Origin: Sinohyriopsis cumingii
Lineage: Eukaryota; Mollusca; Bivalvia; Unionida; Unionidae
Length of the DNA stretch: 64,000 nucleotides
Assembly: GCA_028554795.2 (NCBI GenBank)
Contig: CM068839.1
Coordinates: forward strand, 16,500,720 to 16,564,719
Reading direction: 5' to 3'
A model generated the notes under the pieces. That model was not told the DNA's origin. It saw nothing but the letters and a program-made list of their open reading frames with translations, and made no database searches. Numbering within the stretch: the stretch's first letter is position 1; each line of letters opens with the position of its first letter. Shown one piece after another: positions 25,203 to 64,000 of the stretch. The position numbers were made by a program, and so were the translations under genes.

Positions 25203-25246
25203 ATGATAATGAAGAAGATACAAATGAGTATGATACATACGCAGAT
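25203..25246 (+). pseudogene. Duplicate of a KDZ-gene exon (44 bp)
   Basis: Copy of exon 52994-53037, flanked by a tttttcag acceptor and a gtaagt donor. It encodes DDNEEDTNEYDTYAD, with Tyr where the other copy has Cys. It lies in the 5' flank of copy D, cut off from the rest of the gene. Confidence 0.85.

Positions 25247-25849: not shown

Positions 25850-25852
<3 letters not shown>

Positions 25853-25909
<57 letters not shown>
25853..25909. repeat. (TA)n microsatellite in the duplicated KDZ intron
   Basis: About 28 TA units ending 18 bp before the acceptor of the next exon copy. The sister tract is at 53646-53701. Confidence 0.95.
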
Positions 25910-25912
<3 letters not shown>

Positions 25913-25927
25913 TTTGTTTTTTCATAG

Positions 25928-26345: not shown

Positions 26346-27106
26346 GTAAGTAAACTTGAAATTTTAACTGGAAATTTAATTTTACTTTCATGGGACAGTT
26401 AAGCTCAAACATTTTGTGCTATCTCAAAAGGTTCTTCTGGGCATATGAGTGATTGATTGTAGGTGCAAATGCAGTCTGGTTATGGTATTTTAAGGCTACA
26501 TATGAAGAAATGTCCCAAATGTTTTAAAAGATGAGCTAAAGAGAGACAATCGTTTTTTCTATTTTTGCACCATTGCAATAAACAGAATCAGTTACTTTTG
26601 TTCCACTTTCTTATTGAATTCAATTTTTATGGCACACTGAGAGGACAAAACTATTACCCAATTCACCACCTCACCCTTTGTTTTGCTCATTCCTTTTGAT
26701 TAGCCCCCATTTTTTTCCTTCTTGACAGTGCCTAAATTAACCCAATCATAAATGTAATCCTGTTGCTTAAATTAACTGCTTTCATTACATCATACTATAA
26801 AACTGAATAATTAGCTTGTTGCTCAGAACTGGTAGAATGGTTTTTATCTGTTTTGATGAAAAATGCTTTCTTATACACACAAATTAAATTATTACGACTT
26901 TTTCATGAGAAAATAAATAGTGTGTCATGTGCAACAGTTCAACTTTTCAGAGAAAGTTTGTAATATAATATGAAATGTTAAGTACAGATATATGGAAAGA
27001 TAACAGGTACACTTCATTAAGAGTAAACATTGAGAATATGTTATCATTACCTACTGATATAATCCTTAAGCCTGTTATATTATCCAGTACCACTGTAAAT
27101 AATACA

Positions 27107-39960: not shown

Positions 39961-40050
<90 letters not shown>

Positions 40051-41475: not shown

Positions 41476-42420
41476 GAGCCAAAACATTCTACAGAATACT
41501 GGAAAGTCCACTGTTAAGCAGGAACTTCTTGTTTCAACAATTATCCCAAGTATTTCATCAAACATATTCTTATATAATATGCAGTCAATTCTGTCCATTA
41601 GCAATATTTTTCAAGCCTTTGCATGTAGGGTACTTCCCATGAATGGCTGTTTTGAACGATAAGTACGAACTTTGCTGAGATAAACACTCTGGTTGCTATT
41701 ATTCATCGGGTTTTCTCCAATCAAGCTATTTTAAACAAGCAACTTACGAGCTGTGAAGGTCTACGAATGACACACTCCAATGAGCAATACGAAAGATAGA
41801 CTATGTGATCAACCCTTTTGCATCTTTTTGTATTTCCTATTATATCCAGTCCAGATTTATCGTCCTACAAAAAATAGTCTTGTGATGTTTCAATTTTACC
41901 ATTAAAACCTACTACAGCTAGATAAGTTATCCGCCCAAGATAATTTTTCGTTTCGTTACAGTGAGGCGCCACGTTTTGTTTACATCACTAAGTGGCGCAC
42001 ACCTGATGTGCATGTTTCAACACGCTTGGCATTAGAAAGTAAACGATATGAGTATCGATTAAAGTATATAGCTGTCAATTTGGGATCTAAATATTTTATA
42101 TCCAGGGCACTAATTACGAACAATAAGCACGAGGGTACAAAACTAACGTGTAATAGCACTGATTATATCGAGACCTACGAGTCACTAGTAAAACCAAACA
42201 CTAAAGAATGGAACACATCTACACACTAATAAAAAGTTAAAATACGATATCCTATATTATATTTCGAGGTATATTAGTGGACAAAAAATGTCTTAGAACG
42301 GAACGCACAGAACAGTGACGTCAAAACTGATTCTTAACTTTGAGCATGCGCAATTTTAGTTACAACAAAAATGGCGACTCCGGTTAAAAAGGTATCATCT
42401 CGAAATTAGGTAGCAGAATA
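41476..42420. other. No gene recognised
   Basis: AT-rich, unique-looking. A 73-codon open frame at 42008-42229 is not recognisable. Confidence 0.5.
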
Positions 42421-44120: not shown

Positions 44121-44333
44121 AAGAGAATCAGAGCATCAGACTTGATGAAAAGTTGTTGTCGTGTCGGTGAGGAAAAGTATGACTTCAGCAAAATTGTTGA
44201 TCTAAAGGGAGGCGGTGGTAGAGATTCAACAAAGAAGGGTAGACCACCAGGTATTACATCAGACATGCCATCAAAGACTGCAGTGAAACCTGTTGTATTG
44301 ACACTACCAGATGCAGTACCATGTGAAACTGAG
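44121..44333 (+). CDS. KDZ-like gene exon a
   Basis: 71 codons, phase 0 to 0, acceptor tttgcag, donor gtaaga. Starts KRIRASDLMKSCC and has a Gly-rich GGGGRDSTKKGRPPG stretch, which looks like a flexible basic linker, possibly AT-hook-like (KKGRPPG). Confidence 0.75.
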
Positions 44334-47300
44334 GTAAGATACTATTTTCATTGCCCAACATGCTTTAGGATTGTAAAAATATATTTAACTCATTACCGTT
44401 TAAGTCCATTTGAGTAATGTCTGCTGCTATATATTTTCTTCTTTTACAAATTTAATTACACATATAAAAGTGCCCTGTTCCCGTATGTGTTTGTACTGTG
44501 TGCAAGAACCATGTGAGAAATAAAAATTTCTTTTGCAGAGTCTCATCAAAATGTAAACAGTTACTGTTATATCAATAGATGACGTGTATTTACCAATTTT
44601 TCTGTATTTTATTTACTTTTGTCTTATTGTCTATGTTGAATGTCTATTGCAGACAGTAGTGGAGGATTCAACTACCGAGAGATTACTTACATCAGAAGAA
44701 ATGTATAGTAATCTTTTAAAGGAGTCTGATGGTCTTTTCATGATTGACAAGACCTACCAGACATTTATGTTGCAGGATTTTGACAAAGATAGGATGGCCC
44801 TTAAGGTAAATTTTTCTTTAAATTTTTAATCTTTCTAGATTTGTGTAGCCTAGCACTCCATACTCCAAGTTCCTGCTTCCAGAGCCTTACATTAGGTAAT
44901 AGTTCTATTATGATGGACATCTTGCTAAAAGAATGAATAATTGGAAATGAGTTTTGCTAGTAGGAGATAGGCTACTTTAAACTAGTGATACTTTGTCAAT
45001 TATACATGTATTCAAAACATTATATAATACTGTATGTATGTTTATTCACAGATTGTGTCCTTTGTATATTATTGTTCTATATTTATGTGAACATTGTTCA
45101 CTAACAAAATATTGTTTATGTTCAGGCATCATATTTGCAAGATATAGCAAAATTACCTTGTTTATATCTGGCATACACAATGTACATGCCATTAGACCAT
45201 TTTCTCAGGACCCTAATATATGTTATAATAAATAATTTAATGCCATGTCCTCCTAGTAGAGCTTTACCAACCGCTCACTGCTTTGATCATGGTATCAAAG
45301 TCAAGACACATGACAATAAGAAATTGTGATCATGATTTGTTACAATATGACTTTTGTTTGTTATTATGTTCATTATAATGTATTCATTTTTATAAGTTTA
45401 GACTGTTATCAAAGATCTTCTGTCTGTTTTATTTTTTCACAGACAGGGAAGTTTTTTTTTGCAACAAGAAGGGGGATGTCTCTCAATGACGATATGCATT
45501 GGATATATAAATGCACCTGCGATGTAACTAGATCTGAATTTATAGAATGCTGTAGAGAAAGGATGCATGTACCATACAGTGGTAAAAAAATAAAAATGAT
45601 TTCTCTGCAATTTCAATCAAATCATCCACTTTAAAGATGCATATTCCAGTTCTGACATTATCACAAGAAAGTGAGATATAGCAATAACTTTGCCCAATTA
45701 CATGGTCCATTTTGTTTTTGTTTTTCCCATTTCTGTCTAAACTATTTCTTGAGTTATGCATGCAGTTTCATAGAATTTTACTAAAATAACAATTCACAGT
45801 TGGAAATAGTGTTATACATCAAAGTCAAGTTCAGTGTGTCACTAGGAATTGTAGCTTTACAATCAAAATAATATTTGGCTATGTAACTTTTGTTTAGCTT
45901 TGGAAAAACCTCGTATAAATCAATTCTTTGTGCATTACTGATGTCATTGTTCATGACTTGGAACAATTATGTACCACTACAGTTTGGTTATGTAAGTGGT
46001 GTTTCTGCATTTGTTCTTTCTTAATAGTAAGTTTTATCCCATGTACGATGACTCATACTTTACATGGAAAGTTTTATTTGTCCAACACTATTTGTTGTTT
46101 CTGAAATATAAAAATTTAATCTAATATTATAATTACCTATTTATGTGATTACAGACAGTTTTTTTTCTATTATTATTGCCCACTTCAGTGATCATGGTTA
46201 AATTGTTTCATCCCTTATTAATTATTCAGCAGCTCAGTGGCTTGGATTATTATAACAAATTATGTTCACTTGTGTAAGGACACGTTTTTTATTTCAGATT
46301 TTATGAGGAGAGTGCCTGGATGCATCCACGTAAGCACATTGACAACCATTTTAGACCCCTTCGATGCAGTGAACCAGATTTTTCCGACTCTTTCAACAGG
46401 TATATAAATAATATTCCAAGTGCCAATCAGTATTGCAAATTACTGTGAAACCCAAGTTGTAAGGGTACAAAGAGAATGATATTATAAATAAGTCATGTCA
46501 TGACCAAAATTGACAGTCCATCCTTACTTAGTGTTTATTTTAGTGTTGCACATGTATTTGCATTTCATCTGAGGCATTAGCATTAATAACTGACTGATAT
46601 AATAACTTCTGGTAATCTGATTTCTGTAAAACAGTGAAGCTTTTAAATTGTTTTCTGTCAGTGGTGATACACATGTACAACATTAACATTACATCAACGA
46701 AACTCACGACAATTACACATTCAGATTCTCGTGGGTCGGTGGTTCTTTCCGGGGTTTTCCGGGTTCTTCCTCCACCATTAATACTGGCCGCCATGTATAG
46801 CCTATCGTGCTGAAAAATGGCGTTAAACCCCACAACAACAACAACACATTCAGATATGAATAATAAGTAAATAGCCAAAATTTAAAGCTGACAAAATTGA
46901 CATTTATTCGATAATTACCAACTGCATGAATTTGTAATAAATGGTTCATTTTTCAGCCTAATGTTATTGTTTTATTTAGATATTTAGTAAATCTTGTAAT
47001 ATAAGTTAACCCATTATCAAGACTATTTGCTATATTTACTTTTGAGTTTTCGTTTACAAATTCTTCACTGTAGTATTTTCAGTTTTATGAATATTACATT
47101 TCCGGTTAAAATTTCTGTTTGTCACCATGCCCAATTATTGCATCATGGACTGTCTGGTAATATGTAGATTGACTGATTGATTGATTGATTGTGTTTTAAC
47201 GGCGCATCAGCACTTTTAGGCTATTTAGCGCCAAACAAAGTGTTACTTGTATAATCTTTTAAAACTTATAAAAGGTTCTATATCGACCAGCGATATAAAA

Positions 47301-50300
47301 GAACAAATGGTTGAAATTAAAAACGGTAAGATGGTAACGGTGCAAAATAAAGCTTCCCGATCAACGGGAGATGTAAAAAAGATGAATAGGTATTAAAATG
47401 GGACGGTATATATATTGCATAAAACTGCACAAGGTGATAGCATAAAAGTCAGAGTTTAGAGTAAATATTTACGGCTTTCAAGAACTCGATAATACGATTG
47501 ATGTTTATATTATCAAAAAGTTCTTTCATGTCGTGCACAACGTAATAACGATCGCGCGTAGGTTGTAGGTCAAAGCACTCTATCATAAAGTGCTTGACAG
47601 TGAATGGTTCATTGCAAGAAACGCACTCTGGTGGGTCTTCACCTTTTAGTATGTGGGTGTGGGTGATATAAGTATGACCAATTCGGATTCTTGCAATGAC
47701 TACCTCCTCCCTACGAATGGTTCTGTAGGAAGGAGTCCATTCTCCTAGAGTTGGCTTGATTGCATGAAGTTTGTTATTTACAGCATCATTCCATGATGCC
47801 TGCCACTTCTGACGTAAGAACTTTCTGATACAAGGTTTAAAATCAGTATATGGTATTTTAAAATCAGATGGTTCTTGAGAAAGGGCCATTTTAGCAGCGC
47901 GATCTGCTTTTTCGTTACCTTTAATACCAATGTGGCTAGGTAACCAACAGTATATTATATTGTGGGAGACACTCAGCTCGGTATTTTTGACGAGTATGTT
48001 TTTCAATAATGGGTTCTCCAGTTTTCTATTGTGTAGTGACTGGAGTACTGATAGCGAGTCGGAGAAGATGATACTGTTTAAAATAAAGTTCTTTTCTATA
48101 TGTTGCAGAGCAAGGTCTATTGCTCTGATTTCGGCTGTAAAAATTGATGCTCCATTTGGTAAGCGAACTTGCGTTGTGTGATTTCCACAAACAAAGGCTG
48201 CAGCAGCCTTTTCCTCATCCTTTGATCCATCAGTGTAAATTCTGGTGTAGTTTTTAAATTCGGTGAGGAGTTCATGGTAAGAGTTGTGGAAGATAGAAGG
48301 GTTTGTTTCGGATTTTTTTCCATCGTGTAGCGTAAAACGTACTTTTGGTTGTTTAATTAGCCAGGGTGGTGTTTCGGAGATGGATGTTTTCTGAATTTTT
48401 GAAAGATCTATATTTGTAGTGTCAAGGCTGGATGATATTCTAATTCCAAAGGAAGGTATGGCGTTTGGTTTATTTTCGTATAAAGTTTTGTATTTGGGTT
48501 GAAAAACAGCCGAAAAAGCAGGATTCAGAGGGTTTGATTTTAATTTGAGAGCATACTGTGCGGAAAGCATTTCTCTACGATGCGATAACGGTGGTTCATT
48601 CGCCTCAGCTAGAAGGCTTTCACACGGGGATGTTTTAAATGCTCCCAGAGCCAGTCTTATTCCCTGATGATGAATTGGATCAAGCATTTTAAGATACGAT
48701 TTTCTGGCAGAACCATACACAACGCAACCATAGTCTAGTTTGGAGCGAATAAACGTTCTATATAAATTCAGGATGACTTTTCTATCAGCACCCCAGTCAG
48801 TGTGCGCTACTACTTTAAGTAGGTCAAGTGCTTTTAAGCATTTGGCTTTCAAGTTTTTTAGGTGTGGAATAAAAGTCAGTTTTCTGTCAAAGATAATACC
48901 CAAAAATTTGGTTTCCTCAACAACTGGAATAGGTGTTCCGTCCAGCGTGAGTTTAGGTTCATCGTGGTGTCGTCGTAATTGACAGAAATGCATACATACC
49001 GTTTTTGATTTCGAGAATTTGAAACCGTTCGTACTAGCCCAATTTTGAATCTTGTTGATATTTTGCTGTAGTTGTCTTTCAATTGTATGCATGTGCTTTG
49101 ACCGATAACATATGAGAAAATCATCAACATATAGTGAGCAATCCACACCAGGAGTCAAACACTTGGTGATGTTATTAATTTTGATATTGAAAAGTGTCAC
49201 AGATAAAATACTGCCCTGGGGCACACCCATCTCTTGCTCGTGCAAATCTGAGAGAGTACAGCCCACTCGTACCTTGAATTCTCTGTCGGAGAGGAAGTTG
49301 GATATGAAAGAGGGCAGACGGCCTTTAAGACCTAGATCGTGCAGGTCTTTTAGTATCCCGTACTTCCATGTTGTGTCATAGGCCTTTTCTAAATCAAAGA
49401 AAACCGCTACTAAATGTTCTTTCTTGATAAATGCATCGCGAATGAATGTTTCTAGTCTAACCAGATGATCGTTGGTGCTCCGTCCATATCGAAAGCCACT
49501 TTGGAAAGGAGATATTAAATTGTTAGTTTCCAGGTACCATACAAGCCGAGAATTGATCATTCGTTCCATTGTTTTGCACATGCAGCTTGTAAGTGCAATA
49601 GGTCGATAGTTGGTAGGATCTTCGCTATCTTTACCGGGTTTGGGAACTGGTATTACTGTTGCTTCTTTCCATATTTTAGGTAGGTTACCAGTAATCCATA
49701 AATCATTGAAGAGTTTTAAAAGAGATGTTAAAGATGATTCTGGAAGATGCTTTAAAAACTGATAATGTATTTTGTCAGTCCCAGCGGAAGTATCATGGGC
49801 CTTGTCTAAAGCCTCCATAAGTTCTGATAGTGAAAACAGCTGGTTGTAGCTTTCCGAGTTGTTGCATGTGAATTTTAAACGTGACTTTTCTTTTTGAGTT
49901 TTCAATTTTTGGAAGGCTTCGGAATAATTAGATGATGACGAATTTTTAGAGAATGTATCAGCAAGAACATTTGCTATGTCACGTTTTGAGCTAAGATTGT
50001 TATTGTTCACTTTTAGATGTCGGAAAGAATTGTGTTTTCTCTTTCCGTTTATTTTTCGGATCGTGTCCCAAACTTTCTTAATTGAGGAACGAGAGTTTAA
50101 AGAGGAAACATATTTCATCCATGATGCTCGTTTACTTTCTTTGATTGTGCGGCGAGCTTTGGCCCGGAGAATACGATATTTACTTAAATTCTCGGGCGTC
50201 GGATGATTGTTAAATTTTTTCAAGGCTTCTCTGCGTTGCCGTATGGCTTCCTTACATTCCTTAGTGAGCCAAGGTTTTAGGGTTCTTTTACAGTTTGCTG

Positions 50301-53300
50301 AGGACTTGGGGATAGATTCTTCTGCAATGTCGGTTAAAATAGATGTAAAATGCTGAATGGGGTCGTTAACATTGAAAACTGTATCCTCATTCAGCCTGGT
50401 TTTACAGAGTGTTTCGAATTTGGCCCAGTCGGCCTTCTTTAAATTCCATTGTGGAATTACTTCATCAATTGTAGAGTTATGATTTATAAGGGAGATTGGG
50501 AAGTGATCGCTGCTGTGAAGGTCATCAGCGACCTTCCATTCATAGTCCAAAAGCAGCGAAGGAGAACAAATTGTCAAATCGATGCATGTGTATGTACCCG
50601 TGCCTGGGTGTAAATATGTAGGTGTTTTGGTATTATATAGACACAGATCGTGTCTAGAAATAAAGTCTTCAACTTTGTGACCTCTGTCACTTACATGATT
50701 CGATCCCCATAAAATGTTATGGGCATTAAAATCCCCGAGTAAAACAAAGGGTGCGGGAAGCTGTTGAACAAGATTATCGAGTTCGTTTGGTACTAGGTTA
50801 GTGTTTGGTGGTAAATAAATAGAGCAAAATGTAATCACTCGATGTAGAGTGACGCTTACAGCAATGGCTTGTAAATTGGTGTTTAAAGGAATGAAACTGT
50901 GAGGAGCTCTGTTGTTCACAATAACAGAAACTCCTCCTGATGCCCTATCAACATTTGGAGAGCAGGTGTTAAACAGGGAGTAGTTTTTAAATGTGATGTT
51001 GTCTGTATCTTTAAAGAAGGTTTCTTGAAGGCATAGTACCGCAGGATCATGTTCGTTTAAAAGCAGGAGAAGATCATTGTAATTTGCTTTAAGTCCTCAA
51101 CAATTCCATTGTATGATAGTGTTTTTCATTATAAATTTAAATTAAAGATTGTGGAGCTAGGTTAGACCTTTCGCAGAGGGAATTTGTTTTGTTATTTCTC
51201 TGGAGGATGTACGGGGGTGAATTTTTTGTTTGTAGGTCTGGAGTTCCGTTGAGCGCATGGAGCAGATTCTTCTGCATCCATGCTCTCGATGTCTCCAAAC
51301 CTGTTATAAAGTTTGATGGGGTCATCTGACCCCTTTTGTTGCCTGTTTCCATGAGATTTATTTTTGTTTTTTGGTGATTTAGTTTGTTGGGTATTGCTGA
51401 ATGTAGTTTGTGTAGATGCCGTGTTTCTCTGTGATTGGTAATGAGGGGTATTTGAGCTTGGTGTTGAATCGGGTGCTTCTGTTTGTGTTTGAGCGTCCTT
51501 CGTTGTTTTAGGATTGCTCTTCACTACAGTGGAGAAGGATGGGCCAGGATGGGCTGTTTTCGCCTGTACAAGTTTTCTGGCTTCTGGATAGGGAATATTA
51601 TTTGTGTATTTTACCCTCTGAATTTCCTTCTACTGTTTCCAGGTATCGCAATCCTTGGAATTTGCGTGGTGCTCTTTTCCACAGTTGACACAATGCGGAG
51701 TTGCTCTACAGTCAGCTTCCTGATCAGAATTTTCTCCGCATCGGCCACATATTTGGGTTTTAGAGCAGCGGTCTTCGTGATGGCCGTATTTTTGACATTT
51801 GTAACATCGAAGGGTGTTTGGAATGTAGATGTCAAGCTTCACTTGCAAGAAGCCAACTTTGACCACTTTGGGTACAGTTGGCTTGTTGAAGGTGAGTACA
51901 ATGGTGTTGGTGTCCTGCAGGTTATTATTACGTTTGATACGTATTCGACGGACTGCAGTGACACCTTCACTTTTCATTCCTTCGATGATATCTGCGTCGG
52001 CGACTCCAGCCAAGTCACGACAGCGAATCACGCCTTTGGACGTATTCAGTGTGGTGTGAGCGAATGAGGTCACTGGAATATCGAAGAAAGTTTTTATTTT
52101 CCCGATATAGTCTGACTGACCTCGTCGCTCACATTCCACGAGAAGGCAACCCGATTTCATTTTTTTGACGCTCTTTGGCGTACCAATGAAACCTGTAATT
52201 GTTTTCTCAATCTCAAACGGAGAGAGTGAAGCAAGGGATTTTGCGGCATCTTTAGATTGTATTACCATGAAGCGTGGAAATGTGTCCACACTACATGGTT
52301 CGTCGTCCGAGTCAGATAAAGTTTTGGTACGTTTATTTTGATTTTTTTTGGAAATATCCATTTTGGCTAGATTAAAAATTCAGCACCCGTGCTCCCCACC
52401 CACCAAGGAGCCCAACAAGGGGACACTTTTCAAGTGTCAGTGATACACAGATGCCATACTCAGTTGATAAAATTACCTTTGGTTGACCTTGAAGTCGCCA
52501 ATTTCTAAGGTCGGTAAAATTACCCCCCGATTGACCCGTTAAGCCACCGCCTTCTAGGAAGTCTTCTAAGACTTGGAAAAGGGAAAGATAAAGGAAGAGA
52601 ATTTAGGGGCAACGGTGGTATCAAGAGAGATACAAGGAGACAGATAAAGAAGGTGAGAGAGTAAATAAAGACCTCCTAGGGCTCGGCGTGACCAGCCGAT
52701 TTGTCGGAACCGGGCCCATCCCGACCACCCGTCTAAGAGAAGTAGAGGCCAAAGTAGTGTGTTGCAGGGAAAGCCTCTGCTCAGCTACCAGGATCCTTTC
52801 CTCCTCCGACACGGGACGCAACCCACGGCAAACAGGTTGCCTCTACTTAGTCGCCTTTTACGACACGTAGCGAGGCACGTCGGGCCAATTCTACAACCCC
52901 GGACCCGCAGGGGGAGTAATATGTAGAAAAATATGAAAATGATTGCATTGTTCAGAGTATGTATTTGCTTTTAAGTCACTTCACATTTTTCAGATGATAA
53001 TGAAGAAGATACAAATGAGTGTGATACATACGCAGATGTAAGTTGAAATTTTGTTAGGTATTAAATAACCTGCCCAACCCCACCTTAAAGAGTATGGTTT
53101 ACATTCCAATCTAATACCTAAATTTCCCTCATCATAAAAAGGTATGCATCACTTAAAATTGTTGTCTATAATTGTGTTTCTTTTAGTAAGATTTGAAAAG
53201 ATCTTTGAAAAGTAAATGACAGGAAGTATGAAGTAAATATCGGTAGATAATGCAAAAGACATGTCACAATAAAATATGGGTAATTGGCTATCTTGATCTT

Positions 53301-53640
53301 CAGGACTTTAAGACAACATTATTGTTTTTAAAAATCAGTTTATACAGTAATGATTTCCTTTCTTTGTAAATTGAACATAATTTCTTTAACTTAGAGATCT
53401 GAAAATAATAGCTTGGTTTCTTTTATAACTTGTATATTTACATGATACTTTTATTTTCAGTTGAATAACAAATTTCCTTGATTGTGTGTCTGTTACAAAC
53501 ATTGAATTATTCAGTAAACCTTCTGTGATAACATTATTTTCTCGTCCTCAGTGCAGATAAGTAGGTACCAAATATTTTTTTATAAAAAAAGACTGAAAAA
53601 TTATATGAACCAAAATTGTTGAATATTCAAACGCGATGAA

Positions 53641-53705
<65 letters not shown>

Positions 53706-56700
53706 TTTGTTTTTTTGATAGAAAATAATAGAAGTGAGGAAGGGGCTGTTCTGTATTGTTATAGAACATTGTCATGGTGTAATCGATATCTCAAAAGAAA
53801 CTAAATGCTTGACCTGTGGAACCACCATGAAGGTCAAGTGCATACGCCTTCAGAAATTTTCTTCCCATCATGAAGAACTCTGTCAGACAAGTGGGAGCAC
53901 ACGTCCATCATCATATGAGCCCAAATATTTGTCAAAGAGGAAAATACCATTTCATTCCTCCATCCTAATGCAAGCAGAGTATAAGAAACCATTCACAGAG
54001 AGATTCATATACGATGGTGAATATGTCATCTTGGTTTCTGATAACCAGCTGTGTGATGTTTGCTCTGGTAGACTGCAGGAAACCAGCAGCTACATACAGG
54101 CCAACATATTTGGTGTCCAGCAGATATTAAGTGCTAAAAGTAAGTAAACTTGAAATTTTAACTGGAAATTTAATTTTACTTTCATGGGACAGTTAAGCTC
54201 AAACATTTTGTGCTATCTCAAAAGGTTCTTCTGGGCATATGAGTGATTGATTGTAGGTGCAAATGCAGTCTGGTTATGGTATTTTAAGGCTACATATGAA
54301 GAAATGTCCCAAATGTTTTAAAAGATGAGCTAAAGAGAGACAATCGTTTTTTCTATTTTTGCACCATTGCAATAAACAGAATCAGTTACTTTTGTTCCAC
54401 TTTCTTATTGAATTCAATTTTTATGGCACACTGAGAGGACAAAACTATTACCCAATTCACCACCTCACCCTTTGTTTTGCTCATTCCTTTTGATTAGCCC
54501 CCATTTTTTTCCTTCTTGACAGTGCCTAAATTAACCCAATCATAAATGTAATCCTGTTGCTTAAATTAACTGCTTTCATTACATCATACTATAAAACTGA
54601 ATAATTAGCTTGTTACTCAGAACTGGAAGAATGGTTTTTATCTGTTTTGATGAAAAATGCTTTCTTATACACACAAATTAAATTATTACGACTTTTTCAT
54701 GAGAAAATGAATAGTGTGTCATGTGCAACAGTTCAAATTTTCAGAGAAAGTTTGTAACATAATATGAAATGTTAAGTACAGATATATGGAAAGATAACAG
54801 GTACACTTCATTAAGAGTAAACATTGAGAATATGTTATCATTACCTACTGATATAATCCTTAAGCCTGTTATATTATCCAGTACCACTGTAAATAATACA
54901 TGAACATTTTACATGTTTCTAATGACTCATGTATTTATTGAAATGTAACAGAGTTATGTGATATTTAATTTTCAGTCTTCTCCAAAACATGCATGGAATG
55001 TGAGAAAACGTTCCATTTGGATGGCCTGGAGCAGTGTGTGCTAAATATGGGTAGATACATCATATGTCATGAAGTCCTTAGAAGATTCATGTATTACTTC
55101 TTAACTGGAAAGTAAGCATATCGTATTCTCTGAGTATTAATTAAAATATTTGCTTTATTAGGGGTTTTATCCCTTGTAATTAGGTTCTTCTTTTTCAGCC
55201 ACAGCAGCTTTGTTAAATAGCTCATGTTACTGTATTAAAGTTTATGAAAGCCCTCTTAATCATTTCCTTTATTGAACAGCATGTGTATGCTTAAGATATT
55301 ATCATTGTTATTAACTACCTGTTTTCTTGGTCATGTTTGATATAATCTTCAATTGTTTGCATATACATATAATTATATATACAGATCATGCTTTTGGCCA
55401 AAAATTGTATTGATTCCATGTTCATTTTTGAAGCAGATGAAGAAGAAATTTTTTTTTTGAAGCATCCAGTTTAAATATTATTCTTGGGGGTGGGGATTTG
55501 GCTTTTTACTTGCGATTATCTCAATATTCTGTAGTAATATTTGCAATTATTACAACAATGCAGTACTGCTTCGATGGCCTAGTCGTTAGAGTGGCTACCT
55601 CGGATGCTGTAGGTCGTATTATTGATCCCTGTCCGAGTCATACCAAAGACATACAAAAATGGTACTAACAGCTGCCTCGCTTGGCTCAGCATTAGGAGGT
55701 TAGTATTATGACTGGTCAGGATGATGTAACTGCGTGGGACCTAATGCTACATGTCTGCAGCATGATGCCCAGTGCTAGACAGCACTATAAACTGCCACAC
55801 TGCAGACATTGTAGCGATATGACTGAAAAATTGTTAAAGCAACATTAAAAATCCAAATCACACACACACACACACACAAATACATTTAAATTTGTACAAT
55901 ATTATAGTTGTAACACTTGGATTCATTTGAGCTTGCCAAGGTTCCTATATGACAGCCCATCTACAACTCGGCATATCGTGCAAATATTTCTGTGCTGCGG
56001 GTCTGTAAATTTCATTGGATATGGCAGCAAGCCACTGTATCCAATCAAAATTAAGCTGTTAAAATTTTAACACTGTTCCTACATGACCAAGACAAGGGGA
56101 GAACACAACTTGCATGGCTGATAAATAAGCAATTTTCCAGTGCTGGTCCATGTTTGCACAAATGCCTTTCACTCAAATACACCTGGAACTTTGGCTAGCA
56201 AAGATCCACATGGATTATTTTTAATATCACAATTGAGTAATTGCAAACTGGATGAAAGTAAAACTATGTGCTAATATCTTGTCCTTTGCTCTATCCTTAT
56301 AATTAATGATATCAAAAACTATTTTCATTATTCCTTTTTAATTGAATACTGGAATATTTGTTTATAATTTTATTTTGCACAGGTCAACAATTTTCACAGA
56401 ATACACAGTCCTGTGTAAGATGCACACAGATGCTGGACATGACATTCAGGGAAAACTCAGTTATGGTGAATTTAAATCAGCATGGTACAGCTTTTTGGAT
56501 CTGCTTGAAATAGAATATTCCAGTGCCTTTGTATGCCCACACTGTGGCCAAGATCCAGACACTGCAGTAATGGATGCAACGTCAGTGTCATTCCGGAAGG
56601 AACTTATGTCTTGGCAAAATATACTGTCTTCAGTTAACACTGTGGACAAACCATATGATGCTAGAGATGCACACAGGTAATAATATGAGAGTCTGTTAAC

Positions 56701-59700
56701 ATTTATTGATGTTTATCCATCTGCCAGAAATTTGGAAGGGACATATTGGCTTTTACCCTATCTTTGAAAAATATCTTGCATTGTTATTGGTAAAGTGTGT
56801 TATATTAGACCTGGCAAAATGCCATTTGAGGTCATTAGGAAATATAATAGGTCAGTGTTAGTTGATGTCAAAGATTACAGCATTTGAGCACTCATTCACT
56901 TATCATTGCTTAACAGTGTCTCCACAAATAATCGTTTGAAAATAATTAACACGTTATTTGTGGCAATTGTAGGAGTAAATTATTGGCATGGTTTGTTGCA
57001 ACCCAGTACTGATTGATAGTGTCATCTATATATTAGAACATACCAAGATTATAATAAATAATGTAACAAATATCCTACATGTGATTTTTAGTTGGTCACT
57101 TTCTCCACTTTAGCCAAACAAATGAGTATTATTTCTTATAATTATTTATATATGCAGATTTGTATGGTTTCATGGACACTATTGTTTCAATAGCAATATT
57201 GCTTTGCACTGCAAGTTCACAGTTATCACTATACAAGACAAATAAAGCTTGATTCTAATTGTGCATGTGTCAGTATATAAGTCAATAAGACATTATGGGG
57301 TTGAGAATCATTAAGTATTTCAACTCTAATAGCAAAGTAAGTTTTGTTTTACTAAAATATATTTTAAATCTGATGCTACCATTGGTGATTCTAATTCCTG
57401 AGTGACAAATGTTCATTCCTTTTTTGTATCATGTTCTGTGCCCTCACTTTCATTTTGTCACAGAAATGGCGCCAATATATTACCGTTTCTTTTTTAACAG
57501 AGCCAAGGAGCGGACACTTTTTTCAAGGATAGTGAGATCTTTCCTGCTTGACTTTACATCAAGGGGAATAAGTTTAGAGCAGAAAGGGAAACTCCTTCAA
57601 ACTGTTCAAGAAGAAAATCAAAGTTGTGAATTGTTGTCTTTCTTAACAGTTATACTAGAAGACTGCATCAACAGAGGAGACAGAATTGTAGCTAAAGGAT
57701 ATTGGAGGGAGCTGATCAAAGCTTTGGCTTCCTCAAACCCTTTGTGTAGTTTTTTAGCTCCATCAGAAGATTTATTTGCTTTTCTGAATTGTTCTTTGGC
57801 AAAACATGTTTCTATCTTTGAAGATGACACCACTCTTTCCAGAATTCAGAAAGAAATACCAGTATTTTTCAACCTTCTTTCAAATTTGAAGGAGAACTTT
57901 CCATTTGACACTCTACAAAACATCCTTCCCTATCTTAAACAAAAAGTTTTTGATCCATTCGTTAAAAAAACATGCCCATCAGAATTACTAAATGAAGAAG
58001 ATATCGATGATCTGGCATTTTTTCCTCAGCTTCCACAGATTAGAAAGAGAGGAACATTTGTTGCAGATAAGAAAGGGTCTAGACTGAAGGACATTTGCTC
58101 CAAATTTGCCAAGGGACATCCGCATCTGCTGCCAGGAGTGTTTACACTGTTTTGCCCACATGGTAAGCATAAGTAAGATATTGTCAGAAAAACAAATTGA
58201 ATCATGTAACAGAGTATATTTTACCCGAAGATTGTCTTAACACATTAACCCCTAGCGACAACTTTACGGGGCAGGAGGTAGTAACCTACTGCCGAGCTCT
58301 GTAGCGTCATGTTCATGCAAGATACACTAAAGTGGGTGGTATCATAGAAACGTAGACAGATGTAGCTCTACAATGAAACTAAATAATCTGGAATATCTAG
58401 TTGCACTTCAAAATACAGATAGAAAAACCTCATTTTTTAGACCCAAATTTTTTAAACCCAAAATTTGCCTGTGGTCGGAATCCGATTTTGTGTCTGGATT
58501 TTAGACTTTTTGGTATCAGATCTAAGGCAAACCAGTATGAACTGCAAACAGACAGATGAGTTTTGTAAAAGGTAGGATAAGATGGGCATTTGGAATAAAG
58601 AGTGGTCTCCATACAAAAATAATGGCTCCGTTTAGCAAAAAAATAAAAATAAAAAGAAATTCGAACTTTTACTCCTCTGCTCATGTGCGAGTCAAATAGC
58701 CAACAAATAACGATGTTTTTAACACAACTAGGTAGTATGTTATTGAAAGATGGCCGGGGATTTGGTGTTTTCGAGTCTATTCAGAATAGCTTTCAAAATG
58801 TGTTTCCTACTCGATTTTCAGGCAAAAATGACAAAAAGCTCCAGGGGTTAATGTGTTAATGGCATTAAATTAACTGCACACTGGTATCACCAAACTCCAG
58901 TTTAATGAGTTCTTATTTGCTCAAAAGGCTACGAAGTTTATCACTTTCAGTTAATCATTAATTGTTTTTAGCCGACATTTCTTCAGAATTGTTATTGTAT
59001 TAATAAATATTTTTGAACTAAATCACTTGCATGTACATGTTTTAGTTTGTTTATGTACTGTTACCCCATGATTTTGTCAAGAAAATATTTAAGTGTCTTA
59101 TTTTAATTTATAGGAATTTGCTACGGGTTCCAGGTAATGAAAGTGCATGAATCACCAGATGTTCCATTCACCCTCCTGAGGACCAGATTTAGGAAAGGTT
59201 AGTTGTGTGATTGGCTGTTATAAACTTAGATCTTTTGTTTCTTTTTTGAACATGTGACAAGATATAAATGTATATTTTCAATCATTATTCAGCTGATGGC
59301 TATATCTTAATAATACCTTTAGCAACAACCATTCAATAATCTTTTCTTTGTTGACAATATTAATTATAGAATGAAACAAATTTTGCCGTTTGGGAATATA
59401 GATGGTGTTGTGGATAAGTTCCTTGAATTTTTATACCATGTAATATGGATAATTGTCAAAGGTTATAATATTCGGCCTTTTTTCTACCATTCATAGTTAA
59501 GCAGTTAAGAAAGAAATGCTTGAGATTCATATACTTTATATACAAATTAGCAATGATAATTTTGATGGCATCATTCAGAAATAGTATATGAGTGTGATTT
59601 TTGTTTCAGCTCCAAAACTGGTAGTTTACGATAATGCCTGCTCTCTCCATGTTTACAGCCTTAATAGGGATCCAGTATTTTTCAAGGACACATCATTCCG

Positions 59701-59732
59701 AGTGGACAGTTTGCATTTTAGAAATCATACAG
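44121..59732 (+). CDS. KDZ (Kyakuja-Dileera-Zisupton) transposase-like gene, multi-exon, partial at both ends
   Basis: Eleven exons with GT/AG borders were placed: 44121-44333, 44653-44805, 45443-45581, 46298-46399, 52994-53037, 53722-54139, 54976-55111, 56383-56676, 57501-58162, 59114-59197 and 59610-59732. All phases agree and no stop interrupts the joined frame (about 790 codons). Order of features: a basic Gly/Lys segment, a SWIM-type finger (CTC...CIH) split by an intron, paired-Cys segments (CLTC, CDVC, CMEC), then the transposase core. That core has FVCPHCG followed by VMDATS (first catalytic Asp, 56573), a long helical insert, VFTLFCPHGICYGFQVM, and LVVYDNACSLHVYSLNRDP (second Asp, 59630). 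The catalytic Glu would lie right of the window. KDZ enzymes are DDE/RNase H-fold transposases; vertebrate HMGXB3 may be related (from memory). It could be an intron-rich transposon or a domesticated host gene. The absence of coding lesions favours function or youth. Confidence 0.8.
44653..44805 (+). CDS. KDZ-like gene exon b
   Basis: 51 codons, phase 0 to 0, acceptor attgcag, donor gtaaat. Encodes a short charged segment ending DFDKDRMALK, which joins TGKFFFATRRGMS in the next exon. Confidence 0.75.
45443..45581 (+). CDS. KDZ-like gene exon c, first half of a SWIM-type finger
   Basis: 139 bp, phase 0 to 1. Contains WIYKCTCD; the Cys codons at 45512 and 45518 form the CxC half of the finger. 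The CxH half is in the next exon. Confidence 0.78.
46298..46399 (+). CDS. KDZ-like gene exon d, second half of the SWIM-type finger
   Basis: 102 bp, phase 1 to 1, acceptor atttcag. Encodes DFMRRVPGCIHVSTL with CxH at 46321-46329, completing CxC-x(n)-CxH. The following intron holds a SINE fragment and copy F. Confidence 0.78.
46718..46860 (+). mobile_element. SINE fragment (mollusc-type, 3' part)
   Basis: Contains ccggggttttccgggttc, a tactggccgccatgtata core and the 3' end gaaaaatggcgttaaacccc, followed by a (CAA)n tail. From memory this is the conserved core and tail of a widespread bivalve SINE. The tRNA-like head is missing or unrecognisable. Confidence 0.7.
47449..51129 (-). pseudogene. 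ORF2 of copy F, one stop codon from intact
   Basis: 1227 codons. Codon 11 is TGA (51097-51099) where D and G have CGA or AGA (Arg in NCRGL); all the rest is open. Domains in order: EEP endonuclease (about residues 1-225; LQET, LLGDFNAHN, CIDLTIC, SSDHFP), reverse transcriptase (NYRPIALTSC, FFDLEKAYD, MGVPQGSIL, YVDD at residues 667-670), RNase H (YTDGSKD with Asp near 967, TAEIRAIDLALQ, FSDSLSVLQS, GNEKADRAAK) and a C-terminal CCHC (residues 1169-1185). This set is typical of the I group. The first in-frame start after the stop would lack the endonuclease N-terminus. Confidence 0.94.
51192..52361 (-). pseudogene. ORF1 of copy F with one in-frame TAG
   Basis: 390 codons; starts MDISKKNQNKRTKT. 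Three zinc knuckles (CYKCQKYGHHEDRC, CGRCGENSDQEADC, CVNCGKEHHANSKDC; the second lacks the usual His). TAG at codon 244 (GAG in A and G), then open to the stop after VHPPEK. The truncated 243-residue product would keep all three knuckles and lose only the Pro/Ser/Thr-rich tail, so partial function is conceivable. Confidence 0.92.
52362..52914 (-). promoter_or_regulatory. Structured 5' UTR of copy F
   Basis: 553 bp. The three-part stem is at 52839-52876, identical in sequence to D and G. A likely internal promoter, inferred from the family. Confidence 0.7.
52994..53037 (+). CDS. KDZ-like gene exon e (44 bp)
   Basis: Phase 1 to 0; acidic DDNEEDTNECDTYAD. Very short exon with good acceptor and gtaagt donor. 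Duplicate at 25203. Confidence 0.75.
53646..53701. repeat. (TA)n microsatellite in a KDZ-like gene intron
   Basis: Lies 20 bp before the acceptor of exon f, where a polypyrimidine tract is normally needed. Sister tract at 25853. Confidence 0.95.
53722..54139 (+). CDS. KDZ-like gene exon f (cysteine-pair segment)
   Basis: 418 bp, phase 0 to 1. Encodes KIIEVRKGLFCIVIEHCHGVIDI with the pairs CLTC and CDVC, probably zinc-binding. KDZ proteins carry cysteine clusters upstream of the core. The acceptor reads ttttgatag, weaker than the duplicate's tttcatag. Confidence 0.78.
54140..54975. other. KDZ-like gene intron
   Basis: Homologous to 26346-27106 up to about 54899, where the D-block duplication ends. 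No other feature seen. Confidence 0.7.
54976..55111 (+). CDS. KDZ-like gene exon g
   Basis: 136 bp, phase 1 to 2. Encodes IFSKTCMECEKTFHLDG and CHEVLRRFMYYFLTGK. Adds a CxxC pair and leads into the transposase core. Confidence 0.75.
55569..55880 (+). mobile_element. tRNA-derived SINE, complete-looking
   Basis: The tRNA-like head has an A box (tggcctagtcgttagag, from 55575) and a B-box-like gtcgtattattgatccc. A core with gctgcctcgcttggctcagc and gacagcactataaa follows, then the 3' end gttaaagcaacattaaaaatcc and a (CA)n tail at 55859-55878. From memory the core matches SINEs of bivalves. Lies in a KDZ-like gene intron. Confidence 0.8.
56383..56676 (+). CDS. KDZ-like gene exon h, first catalytic Asp
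   Basis: 294 bp, phase 2 to 2. Encodes FTEYTVLCKMHTDAGHD, then FVCPHCGQDPDTAVMDATS. CPHC at 56534-56545; the Asp at 56573 is the expected first catalytic residue of the KDZ RNase H fold. Confidence 0.8.
57501..58162 (+). CDS. KDZ-like gene exon i, helical insert
   Basis: 662 bp, phase 2 to 1. Mostly helical, Leu- and Lys-rich region (RTLFSRIVRSFLLDF...), ending PHLLPGVFTLFCPHG, a KDZ core motif that continues in the next exon as ICYGFQVM. Confidence 0.82.
58237..58859. mobile_element. piggyBac-type MITE with TTAA flanks
   Basis: TTAA at 58237-58240 and 58856-58859 flank a 615-bp element with perfect 13-bp terminal inverted repeats CACATTAACCCCT / AGGGGTTAATGTG. No transposase frame inside, so non-autonomous. 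TTAA duplication and a CAC-start terminus are hallmarks of piggyBac. Lies in the intron after exon i. Confidence 0.92.
59114..59197 (+). CDS. KDZ-like gene exon j
   Basis: 84 bp, phase 1 to 1. Encodes GICYGFQVMKVHESPDVPF and TLLRTRFRK, a conserved stretch just before the second catalytic Asp. Confidence 0.82.
59610..59732 (+). CDS. KDZ-like gene exon k, second catalytic Asp
   Basis: 123 bp, phase 1 to 1. Encodes APKLVVYDNACSLHVYSLN, then RDPVFFKDTSFRVDSLHF. YDxxC-type motif; Asp at 59630-59632. Donor gtacat. Copy G begins 138 bp into the following intron. Confidence 0.85.
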
Positions 59733-59870
59733 GTACATGTATTTAAATGAAGTTTTGTTTATTGAATTCCTATACAACATTCTGTGCTATCCATCCTGTT
59801 ATAGCGTTATTTTTATCTGTACATTGCAAACTACACTTCATACCAAAGACTTGGTATCAGCAGCTGTCAT

Positions 59871-60422
59871 CCCCTGCGGGTCCGGGGTTGTAGAATTGGC
59901 CCGACGTGCCTCGCTACGTGTCGTAAAAGGCGACTAAGTAGAGGCAACCTGTTTGCCGTGGGTTGCGTCCCGTGTCGGAGGAGGAAAGGATCCTGGTAGT
60001 TGAGCAGAGGCTTTCCCTGCAACACACTACTTTGGCCTCTATTTCTCTTAGACGGGTGGTCGGGATGGGCCCGGTTCCGACAAATCGGCTGGTCACGCCG
60101 AGCCCTAGGAGTTCTTGATTTGCTCTCTCACCTTCTTTATCTGTCTCCTTGTATCTCTCTTGATACCACCGTTGCCCCTAAATTCTCTTCCTTTATCTTT
60201 CCCTTTTCCAAGTCTTAGAAGACTTCCTAGAAGGCGGTGGCTTAACGGGTCAATCGGGGGGTAATTTTACCGACCTTAGAAATTGGCAACTTCAGGGTCA
60301 ATCAAAGGCAATTTTATCAACTGAGTATGGCATCTGTGTATCCCTGACACTTGAAAAGTGTCCCCTTGTTGGGCTTCTTGGTGGGTGGGGAGCACGGCTG
60401 CTGAATTTTTATTCAAGCCAAA
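59871..60422 (+). promoter_or_regulatory. Structured 5' UTR of copy G
   Basis: Terminal hairpin at 59871-59887. Three-part stem at 59908-59945 (GCCT/AGGC, CTAC/GTAG and GTCG/CGAC around the loop taaaagg). Likely holds the internal promoter. Conserved between G and the D/F lineage beyond the surrounding sequence. Confidence 0.7.
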
Positions 60423-61589
60423 ATGGAAAATCAAAAAAATCAAAATAAGCGTACCAAAACGGGAACTGACTCAGATGATGAACCATGTAGTGTGGAATCG
60501 TTTCTTCGCTTCATGGTCATCAAATCAAAAGATGAAACCAAACCCCTAGCCGCACTGTCGCCATTTATAATCGAAAAGACTATACTTGGATTAGTCGGCA
60601 AACCAAAAAGCGTTCAAAAGATTAAATCAGGTGGTCTGCTTGTGGAGTGCGAACGTAAAGCACACACTGAGAACATTAAAAAAATTAAGGTATTTCATGA
60701 CATCCCAGTGACTTGTTTCGCACACACATCTCTAAATACATCAAAAGGCGTCATTCGTTGCCGTGACTTGGCTGGAGTCAGCGACAAAGACATCGTAGAG
60801 GGGATGAAAAGTGAAGGTGTCACTGCAGTTCGTAGGATTCGTATCAAACGAAACAACGATCTGCAAGACACCAACACCATTATACTCACCTTCAACAGAC
60901 CAACGGTACCTAAAGTTGTCAAAGTTGGGTTCTTACAAGTTAGGGTTGAGGTATACATACCAAATCCCCTCCGATGTTACAAATGTCAAAAATACGGTCA
61001 TCATGAAGATCGCTGTTCCAGAAACCAAGTATGTGGACGATGTGGAGACCCTTCTCATCGGGAATCCGAGTGCAAAGCCACTCCGCATTGCGTCAACTGC
61101 GGCAAGGAACACCATGCAAATTCAAAAGATTGCGATATATGGAAACAGGAGAAGGAAATCCAAAGGATCAAATACACATCCAACATCCCGTATCCAGAGG
61201 CCAGGAAGCTTGTACAAACTAGAACATCACTCCCCGGCCCATCCTTCTCAACCATAGTAAAGAGCAATCAAAAAGCAACGAAAGACGCCCAAACCCAAAC
61301 AGACCCACCTGAATCTCCTTCCGTATCGAACATATCGCATTACAAACCCCCAAAAAACTCAACATCGACGCAAACAACGTTCAACAATCCTCCACCATCA
61401 AAATCACCAAACAGTAAGAAAAAGTCGACAGCAAATAGGCAGCAAAAAGGGTCTGATGACCCAATAAAACTGCACAATAGGTTTGGAGACTTTGAGGATA
61501 TGGATGCAGAAGAATCTGCTCCATGTCCTCAAGGTGGCTCCAGACCTAACAACAAAACATTCACCCCCGTACTTCCTCCAGATAAATAA
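60423..61589 (+). CDS. ORF1 of copy G: zinc-knuckle RNA-binding protein
   Basis: 388 residues, intact. A Lys/Asn-rich start (MENQKNQNKRTKT), then a conserved domain to about residue 180, then three zinc knuckles: CYKCQKYGHHEDRC (185-198), CGRCGDPSHRESEC (204-217) and CVNCGKEHHANSKDC (223-237). The Pro/Ser/Thr/Gln-rich tail contains KDAQTQTDPPES and ends in a block with NRQQKGSDDPIKLHNRFGD. In the I group, ORF1 proteins coat the element RNA and help integration. The codon that is TAG in D and F is GAG here. The ATG is the first in a frame aligned with D and F. Confidence 0.93.
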   Translation: MENQKNQNKRTKTGTDSDDEPCSVESFLRFMVIKSKDETKPLAALSPFIIEKTILGLVGKPKSVQKIKSGGLLVECERKAHTENIKKIKVFHDIPVTCFAHTSLNTSKGVIRCRDLAGVSDKDIVEGMKSEGVTAVRRIRIKRNNDLQDTNTIILTFNRPTVPKVVKVGFLQVRVEVYIPNPLRCYKCQKYGHHEDRCSRNQVCGRCGDPSHRESECKATPHCVNCGKEHHANSKDCDIWKQEKEIQRIKYTSNIPYPEARKLVQTRTSLPGPSFSTIVKSNQKATKDAQTQTDPPESPSVSNISHYKPPKNSTSTQTTFNNPPPSKSPNSKKKSTANRQQKGSDDPIKLHNRFGDFEDMDAEESAPCPQGGSRPNNKTFTPVLPPDK

Positions 61590-61651
61590 CCAAAGACATT
61601 GCCTCCGCGAAAGGTCTAACCTAGCTCCAGAATCTTCAATATAAACTTGTA

Positions 61652-64000
61652 ATGAAGAACACCATCATACAATGGAACTGTAGAGGACTTAAAGCCAACT
61701 ACAATGATATTCTTTTGCTCTTAAACGAACGTGATCCTGCAGTACTATGTCTTCAGGAAACATTTTTGAAAGATACAGATAACATCACACTTAAAAACTA
61801 CTCCCTTTTTAACAGCTACTCTCATAATGTTGACAGAGCCTCAGGAGGAGTCTCTGTTATTGTGAACAACAGAGCCCCTCATAGCGTTATCGCTCTAAAC
61901 ACAAATTTACAAGCCACTGCTGTGAGCGTCACTCTGCATCGGGTGATTACCTTTTGTTCTATCTACCTACCACCAAACACCAATTTAGTAACAAATGAAT
62001 TAGACGACCTTGTTCAACAACTCCCCGCACCCTTTATTCTACTCGGTGATTTTAATGCCCATAACATTTTATGGGGTTCAAATCACATAAGTGACAGAGG
62101 TCACAAAATAGAAGACTTCATTTCCAGACACGATTTGTGTCTATATAATACCAAATCACCGACATATTTACACCCAGGAACTGGTACATACACGTGTATT
62201 GATTTGACAATTTGTACCCCATCGCTGCTTTTGGACTATGAATGGAAGGTCGCTGATGACCTTCACAGCAGTGATCACTTTCCAATCTCTCTTAACAATA
62301 CCAACGTTACAATTGACGAAGTAGTTCCACATTGGAATTTAAAGAAGGCCGACTGGGCCAAATTTGAAACACTTTGTACAACTAGACTTAATAGGGATAC
62401 TGTCTTAAACGACAATAACCCTTTTCAATATTTTACTTCTGTTTTAATCGACAATGCAGAAGAATCCATTCCCAAGTCCTCACCAAACGGTAAAAAACTC
62501 TCAAAACCATGGTTCACAAAAGAATGTAAAGAGGCCATTAGACAATGCCGAGAAGCACTGAAAAATTTTAATAATCGTCCAACACCCGAAAATTTAACTC
62601 AGTACCGTATTGTTCCGGCCAATGCTCGCCGCACGATTAAACAAAGTAAAAGAACATCATGGAAAAAATATGTTTCAACTCTAAACTCTCGTTCCTCTAT
62701 AAAGAAAGTTTGGGACACGATCCGCAAAATCAATGGAAATAGGAAATACAATTCCTTTCGACATCTCAAAGTAAACAACAAGAATATCAATTCCAAACAT
62801 GACATTGTTAACATACTTGCTGATAGCTTCTCAAAAAATTCCTCATCCTCTAATTACTCAGAAGCATTCAGAAGATTAAAAACTCACAAAGAAAAGACAC
62901 GGTTGAAATTCACATCGAATAACTCAGAAAGTTATAATCAACCGTTCACAATGTATGAGCTGAAGGAATCTCTGAATAAGGCCCACGATACATCCACTGG
63001 GCCTGACGAAATACATTACCAGTTTTTGAAACACCTCCCAGAACCTTCATTAACAGCCCTTCTAGAAATTTTCAACAATTTATGGATTACTGGTAATGTA
63101 CCTAAAATCTGGAAAGAGGCAACAGTAATACCAGTTCCCAAACCCGGTAAAGATAGCGCAGATCCTAACAGCTATCGACCAATTGCACTCACAAGCTGTG
63201 TGTGCAAAACAATGGAACGAATGATCAATTCTCGGCTTGTCTGGTACTTGGAAACTAATAATTTAATATCTCCTTTCCAAAGTGGCTTTCGATATGGCCG
63301 GAGCACCAACGATCATCTGATTAGACTGGAAACATTTATTCGAGATGCATTTATCAAGAAAGAACACTTAGTAGCGGTTTTCTTTGATTTAGAAAAGGCC
63401 TATGACACGACATGGAAGTACGGGATACTAAATGACCTGCACGATCTAGGTCTAAAAGGCCGTCTGCCCTCTTTCATATCCAACTTTCTCTCCGACAGAG
63501 AATTCAAAGTACGAGTGGGCTCTACCCTCTCAGATCTGCACGAGCAAGAGATGGGTGTGCCCCAGGGCAGTATTTTATCTGTGACGCTCATTAACATCAA
63601 AATTAATAGCATCACCAAGTGTTTGACTCCTGGTGTGGATTGCTCGTTATACGTTGATGATTTTTTAATATGTTATCGGTCAAAGCACATGCATACAATT
63701 GAAAGACAACTGCAGCAAAATATAAACAAAATTCAAAATTGGGCCAATGCAAACGGTTTCAAATTCTCGAAATCAAAAACGGTATGCATGCATTTCTGTC
63801 AGTTACGAAAACATCATGATGAACCGAACCTCACGCTGGATGGAACACCTATTCCAGTTGTTGAGGAAACCAAATTTTTAGGTATAATCTTTGACAGAAA
63901 ACTGACCTTTATTGCACACCTAAAGAACTTAAAAGCTAAATGCTTAAAAGCACTTAACCTACTTAAAGTAGTAGCGCACACTGACTGGGGTGCTGATAGA
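61652..64000 (+). CDS. ORF2 of copy G: endonuclease-reverse transcriptase, open to window edge
   Basis: 783 codons without a stop, beginning MKNTIIQWNCRGLKANYND 62 nt after ORF1. EEP endonuclease: LQET, LLGDFNAHNILWG, CIDLTICTPS, SSDHFP. Reverse transcriptase: SYRPIALTSCVCK, QSGFRYGRSTNDH, FFDLEKAYD (motif A), MGVPQGSILS (motif B), YVDDFLICYR (motif C, Tyr at 63650, residue 667 as in F) and ETKFLGIIFDRKLTF (motif E region). RNase H and the C-terminal CCHC seen in F should follow beyond 64000. The protein nicks target DNA and copies the element RNA from the nick. All visible catalytic residues are present. Confidence 0.94.
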   Translation, partial: MKNTIIQWNCRGLKANYNDILLLLNERDPAVLCLQETFLKDTDNITLKNYSLFNSYSHNVDRASGGVSVIVNNRAPHSVIALNTNLQATAVSVTLHRVITFCSIYLPPNTNLVTNELDDLVQQLPAPFILLGDFNAHNILWGSNHISDRGHKIEDFISRHDLCLYNTKSPTYLHPGTGTYTCIDLTICTPSLLLDYEWKVADDLHSSDHFPISLNNTNVTIDEVVPHWNLKKADWAKFETLCTTRLNRDTVLNDNNPFQYFTSVLIDNAEESIPKSSPNGKKLSKPWFTKECKEAIRQCREALKNFNNRPTPENLTQYRIVPANARRTIKQSKRTSWKKYVSTLNSRSSIKKVWDTIRKINGNRKYNSFRHLKVNNKNINSKHDIVNILADSFSKNSSSSNYSEAFRRLKTHKEKTRLKFTSNNSESYNQPFTMYELKESLNKAHDTSTGPDEIHYQFLKHLPEPSLTALLEIFNNLWITGNVPKIWKEATVIPVPKPGKDSADPNSYRPIALTSCVCKTMERMINSRLVWYLETNNLISPFQSGFRYGRSTNDHLIRLETFIRDAFIKKEHLVAVFFDLEKAYDTTWKYGILNDLHDLGLKGRLPSFISNFLSDREFKVRVGSTLSDLHEQEMGVPQGSILSVTLINIKINSITKCLTPGVDCSLYVDDFLICYRSKHMHTIERQLQQNINKIQNWANANGFKFSKSKTVCMHFCQLRKHHDEPNLTLDGTPIPVVEETKFLGIIFDRKLTFIAHLKNLKAKCLKALNLLKVVAHTDWGADR

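Follow-up and report, generated by a model that had tools for sequence, protein, structure and literature searches.

Among the closest described systems, giant KDZ transposons are known from algae: in the accessible parts of PMC12477816, Ectocarpus elements reach 30.3 kb and carry nested insertions, and a 31.7-kb active KDZ element in Chlamydomonas is cited. Zisupton elements are multi-exonic and resemble ordinary genes, and related sequences have been found in mussels (PMC9297572, accessible sections). Zisupton and one Dileera family generate 8-bp target duplications, and fungal Kyakuja elements generate 7-bp duplications, begin with CA, end with TG and have no inverted repeats (PMC12730594, accessible sections). 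A review of giant transposons contains no occurrence of Zisupton, KDZ or Kyakuja (PMC6431247). Here, we describe an intron-rich gene in the bivalve Sinohyriopsis cumingii that, in our assessment, very probably encodes the transposase of a giant cut-and-paste KDZ (Kyakuja-Dileera-Zisupton) DNA transposon that has recently spread in the genome. The window is the whole stretch of 64,000 nucleotides that we analyzed, C16:16500720-16564719; labels such as C6, C7 and C8a denote copies on contigs of the same 2.9 Gb genome.

The features of the locus are listed in Table 1. The sequence-only reading had described eleven in-phase exons of about 790 codons without a stop, and we confirm this description: from 44121 to 59732 the exons form one continuous frame of 2368 nt, or 789 codons, with 0 stops, and GT donors and AG acceptors are present throughout. 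When the frames were checked with slightly different borders, the other two reading frames both contained stops in nine of the eleven exons; exon 4 (102 nt) and exon 5 (44 nt) each have one alternative frame that is open as well. The gene extends past the window to a final exon 12, which encodes NSQVVEQSN followed by a TGA stop, has no stop or frameshift before it and carries a third acidic residue (E819), giving 853 aa from exon 1 to exon 12. We also predict a previously unlisted first coding exon of seven codons, joining exon 1 in phase 0 and situated at the inner boundary of the left terminal repeat; with this exon the predicted protein has 860 aa. Its ATG and donor are the same at eight left ends, including that of the window copy, and were not found in an exact-match search of C7, C8a and C2.

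Table 1. Features of the locus, in window coordinates
Feature	Position	Strand	Basis
Left terminal inverted repeat, ~114 bp	42266..42379	+	sharp homology start, inverted copy in C6
Predicted first coding exon, MATPVKK	42371..42391	+	ATG and GT donor; inferred
Exon 1	44121..44333	+	in-phase exon chain
Exon 2	44653..44805	+	in-phase exon chain
Exon 3, CxC half of SWIM-like motif	45443..45581	+	exon chain, residue pattern
Exon 4, CxH half of SWIM-like motif	46298..46399	+	exon chain, residue pattern
SINE-like insert, intron 4, 110 bp	46727..46836	.	absent from C7 and C8a
LINE, intron 4, flanked on both sides by GTAATATGTAGA (12-bp duplication)	47169..52915	-	absent from C7 and C8a; open frames
Exon 5	52994..53037	+	in-phase exon chain
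Exon 6, CxC4-like cluster begins	53722..54139	+	exon chain, Pfam scan
Exon 7, rest of CxC4-like cluster	54976..55111	+	exon chain, Pfam scan
Exon 8, VMDATS, likely first catalytic Asp D473	56383..56676	+	exon chain; Asp by position
Exon 9	57501..58162	+	exon chain, genome matches
MITE-like insert, inverted ends, 612 bp, intron after exon 9	58240..58852	.	absent from C8a, C8b and C29; present in C7
Exon 10, KDZ profile match begins	59114..59197	+	exon chain, KDZ match
Exon 11, YDNAC, second catalytic Asp D763	59610..59732	+	exon chain, KDZ match
LINE, intron 11, continuing to 65606 past the window end	59867..64000	+	absent from C7 and C8a; 9-bp duplication
Exon 12, E819 and stop	65990-66183, beyond window		sequence past window end
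Partial second copy: LINE, exons 5 and 6 (25203-25246, 25928-26345), intron pieces	19398..27106	+	98.98% to 47178-54900

The family assignment rests on the C-terminal part of the protein. A 152-aa C-terminal fragment that includes the last exon matches Pfam KDZ (PF18758) at E=8.1e-7 (29.4 bits, cut-off 26.6) over profile positions 76-206 of 217, in agreement with the KDZ-like character suggested earlier; a fragment without the last exon gives KDZ only at E=0.04, and KDZ is absent from the Pfam scan listing of the full 853 aa, which contains CxC4 and weak others. CxC4 itself scores below its cut-off, at E=0.0037 for the whole protein and E=0.0019 for a fragment, and a search of the genome for the CxC4 family was uninformative, since it returned 0 matches and its controls returned 0 as well. 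The previously noted VMDATS and YDNAC motifs are both present and lie at residues 471 and 762 of the predicted 860-aa protein. D763 and E819 lie inside the KDZ profile match; D473, in VMDATS, lies outside it and is, by its position, the likely first catalytic aspartate. The SWIM zinc finger has the pattern CxCx(n)CxH, and where a SWIM finger had been proposed there is a SWIM-like CxC...CxH pattern at residues 153-186, split across exons 3 and 4; Pfam listed no SWIM profile, either for the whole protein (E<=1) or for that part (E<=10). No related solved structure was found at E<=1, and two fragments tested against NCBIfam gave no match. Vertebrate HMGXB3 has been linked to KDZ/CxC4 and may resemble the gene described here in the C-terminal half. 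Unlike HMGXB3, the 853 aa have no HMG box listed at E<=1 in the Pfam scan, and the gene belongs to a multicopy element with terminal repeats; our literature search found no work linking HMGXB3 with KDZ.

The gene sits inside an element with well-defined ends. The element starts sharply at 42266 (homology between the window copy and C7 begins at 42265), and in seven of nine further left-end stretches the start falls at 42264-42266 with unrelated flanks; the remaining stretches are C2, which begins at 42390 and has no intact left end, and C6:150998800-150999900, which gave no match. The terminal repeats of C6 begin with GAGG and are identical at 112 of 115 aligned columns. The inverted tip recurs exactly 36,594 bp downstream in C6, 36,749 bp in C21, 38,029 bp in C16b and 39,692 bp in C12, and with 2 mismatches at 39,926 bp in C7, so that the five complete copies with paired tips measure 36.6-39.9 kb. 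The tips of C8a and C8b (C8:51483342-51548074 and C8:52252990-52317576) have 1 and 2 mismatches and stand about 64.7 and 64.6 kb apart. Because an 18-base tip with up to 2 mismatches occurs at 62 forward and 68 reverse places, no more often than a reversed control (84 and 97), such matches are meaningless by themselves; we relied on exact tips and accepted tips with 2 mismatches only where one was expected (C7, C8). Among the exact tips listed, 14 of 17 lie at gene-bearing copies and three (C3, C5 and C9:38537113) at no known copy. A genome search with 135 terminal bases gave 42 matches, including a 14.3-kb pair on C15. At C143:929597-929899, two inverted tips lie within 303 bp and resemble a miniature non-autonomous derivative.

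Perfect 7-bp target duplications flank four of the six tip pairs whose right flanks were read (AGAGACG in C6, CATGGGT in C12, AAAACTA in C16b and CATTAGT in C21), and none was seen in the other two, C7 and C8a. Of the terminal inverted repeats and 8-bp duplications that had been proposed as search targets outside the gene, the repeats are present, and the duplications are 7 bp long, not 8. The left terminal repeat contains TGACGTCA and GCATGCGCAA, which we take to resemble CRE and NRF1 sites. The right terminal repeat of C6 also has an ATG, opening the frame MAASMT before a GT donor; no gene behind it was found in the parts of C6 read, which exclude 5.7 kb. A Pfam scan for cargo genes in the right part of C6 likewise listed no family at E<=0.1; it covered two concatenated sequences of 1646 and 1157 aa, selected from 76 open frames (4,999 aa), with the same 5.7 kb outside. 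About 400-900 bases inside the right end, the right arm of C6 has YADD-containing open frames that by eye resemble part of a LINE reverse transcriptase and for which no Pfam family was listed.

Copies of this element are dispersed in the genome. The 789-aa sequence gave at least 58 matches at E<=0.001 at dispersed sites, and the C-terminal part gave 140, with exon 12 present in the window copy and in nine or more further locations. Five locations (window, C6, C16b, C21 and C12) have a complete exon 9 without stops, with 97-99% protein identity; the C2 match covers residues 499-708 of the exon 9 part, and in C9a, C8a, C8b, C29, C7 and others the matching part is damaged, covers less or is more diverged. 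Dispersed copies keep the introns and the order of exons 1, 6, 8 and 9, and in C6 the distance from exon 1 to exon 9 is about 7.5 kb, without the LINE of the window copy. Neither stops nor gaps occur in the compared exons of C6, C16b and C21, all of which retain both ends, and C6 and C16b are 99.4% identical across 5.2 kb of non-coding right arm. The exons of the window copy are 98-100% identical to those of C6, C16b and C21 where compared (97% in part of exon 11). Single stops occur in C12 (exon 6), C2 (exon 7) and C7 (exon 11), and C8a, C8b, C29, C12b and C2b carry stops or gaps. More distant KDZ relatives (~37% identity) occur as uninterrupted open frames, the longest of 1387 codons, at C15:124815008, C15:86497434, C10:46245147, C852:8400 and other places; intron-poor and intron-rich KDZ families therefore seem to share one genome.

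The window copy has itself become a target of other elements. As had been recognized from the sequence, retrotransposons occupy two introns, namely LINEs in introns 4 and 11 with flanking duplications of 12 and 9 bp, and for the reported MITE and SINEs we find a 612-bp MITE-like and a 110-bp SINE-like insert, both intronic. A third LINE, with a 13-bp flanking duplication and absent from C7 and C8a, lies beyond the last exon at 68004-73729. All three LINEs inserted after the window copy formed, and none lies within an exon. We attribute the clean exons to the youth of the copy and to the later insertions having landed in introns. Element sequence continues beyond the window to 74797, where homology to other copies ends; we rejected this position as the right end, since C7, C16b, C2 and C9a continue beyond it. 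No convincing short inverted repeats were seen near 74797, and neither the tip search nor the 135-base search listed a right tip there. Since the homology stops at that point with no right end found nearby, the window copy, which has the left end and the full reading frame, has probably lost its own mobility.

Part of the copy is duplicated within the window. The stretch 19398-27106 aligns to 47178-54900 over 7723 bp, includes the first LINE, and runs from the 3' tail of this intron-4 LINE into intron 6; the only exons in it, 5 and 6, differ from those of the gene by 1 synonymous and 4 non-synonymous codon changes. Its ends show no target duplication, and a LINE 5' transduction, a segmental duplication or a fault in the assembly could each account for it. 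It is flanked by diverged direct repeats of a single unit (12008-19401 and 27109-32161). Sequences of one LINE family, 79-99% alike, occur on both strands of the window at 1459-11430, 19398-25124, 39405-40857, 47169-52915 and 59867-64000. At 33921-35784, separate open frames match DUF3504 at E=0.00048 (below the cut-off) and Phage_integrase at E=3.6e-6 (just above it), and resemble a tyrosine recombinase of the Crypton-like kind.

The sequence-only reading had favored a maintained, possibly domesticated gene, and had itself named many copies with terminal inverted repeats as one observation that would overturn this view; such copies are what we found. Copy number, paired ends, terminal repeats and 7-bp duplications together rule out a single-copy domesticated gene. 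One could still envisage that a KDZ transposase was taken over as a host gene, with the dispersed copies as its mobile relatives and the window copy immobilized and kept. The absence of stops and frameshifts over 789 codons and the last exon, the failure to find a right end and the signature of selection all fit this scenario. By the Nei-Gojobori method, applied to gap-free exons only and leaving out several exons of dispersed copies, dN/dS between the window copy and C6 is 0.22 (12 synonymous and 10 non-synonymous changes; binomial P=0.00065), with ratios also below 1 against C16b (0.24), C21 (0.24), C9a (0.26), C9b (0.26) and C12 (0.36). Ratios against C12b (0.34), C29 (0.46), C2 (0.60), C8a and C8b (0.66 each) and C7 (0.78) complete the series, the simple binomial test for C7 giving P=0.32; divergence in exons and in the rest of the sequence is 3.09 versus 3.81% to C7 and 7.74 versus 9.15% to C8a. 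However, the two-ended copies C6, C16b and C21 likewise lack stops and gaps in the compared exons, and C6 gives ratios of 0.07 with C16b, 0.11 with C21, 0.16 with C9a and 0.18 with C12, as well as 0.29 with C2, 0.29 with C7 and 0.55 with C8a; C16b against C7 gives 0.33. Since the two-ended copies share these low ratios, constraint is a property of the family. Ratios below 1 between copies fit the production of new copies from working sources and do not require a role in the host. The entry of three LINEs into the window copy and the duplication of part of it also speak against a retained host function, and we regard domestication as very improbable.

We give even less credence to the idea that the copies are segmental duplications or assembly duplicates rather than transpositions. 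In its favor, C8a and C8b, about 770 kb apart, have the same identities and the same damage and are probably one insertion that was duplicated, and the partial second copy in the window is a duplicated piece without terminal repeats. However, homology stops exactly at the terminal repeats, with unrelated flanks, and four copies, each on a different contig, have perfect 7-bp duplications. Provided that the assembly is correct, duplication is refuted for C6, C12, C16b and C21, and it is still likely for C8a/C8b and the partial copy in the window. That the transposon died long ago and its exons merely happen to be clean is scarcely credible: the three LINEs, the failure to find a right end for the window copy and the stops or gaps in C8a, C8b, C29, C12b and C2b would suit it, but the near-identity of its exons to those of C6, C16b and C21 and the excess of synonymous changes point to recent spread from a working source.

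Read as a mobile KDZ element, the locus suggests a coherent mode of action. Transcription would probably start in the left terminal repeat; because the predicted start codon lies inside this repeat, the repeat probably also serves as the promoter. A transcript of 13 exons would encode about 860 residues, in which the SWIM-like pattern and the CxC4-like zinc cluster probably bind DNA, such as the terminal repeats, or chromatin. An RNase H-type core with the acidic residues D473, D763 and E819 is predicted to be catalytic, and the enzyme would cleave the DNA at the inverted repeats and integrate the element through a staggered cut of 7 bp. We infer this D-D-E cutting and staggered insertion because of the combination of domain, repeats and duplications. 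The element is presumably active at the present day.

As far as the accessible parts of PMC12477816 describe them, the giant KDZ elements of algae share with this element the KDZ transposase, great length, nested insertions and many copies, and differ in the kind of host; the element here measures 36.6-39.9 kb, with no accessory gene in the parts read. Because giant KDZ elements are known in algae, we regard it as a known kind of object that is unusually large and complete. With the Zisupton elements of fish, nematodes and fungi it has in common a multi-exon, gene-like transposase and terminal inverted repeats, but its duplications, 7 bp in four of six pairs and none seen in two, depart from the 8 bp given for Zisupton (PMC9297572, PMC12730594, accessible sections). 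It resembles Kyakuja in its 7-bp duplications, and differs in having 115-bp inverted repeats that begin with GAGG in place of CA..TG ends without inverted repeats (PMC12730594, accessible sections). A literature search that took in few subscription papers, some of the sources being partly accessible, found no animal KDZ element of such size and end type, which is weak evidence of absence. It is tempting, if rather doubtful, to see here a new KDZ sub-lineage of giant elements with long terminal repeats and 7-bp duplications, in which both repeats would supply a promoter and a start codon, on the left for the transposase and on the right (MAASMT) for a second, inward-reading gene.

The complete elements of 36.6-39.9 kb exceed the reported KDZ sizes we found, 30.3 and 31.7 kb (PMC12477816, accessible parts). 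More generally, our findings illustrate how a transposase gene of many exons can be mistaken for a conserved gene of the host, with clean exons, element-filled introns and dN/dS below 1. With near-identical copies and exact target duplications at hand, it becomes possible to test excision, the choice of target and the largest size that cut-and-paste transposition can handle.
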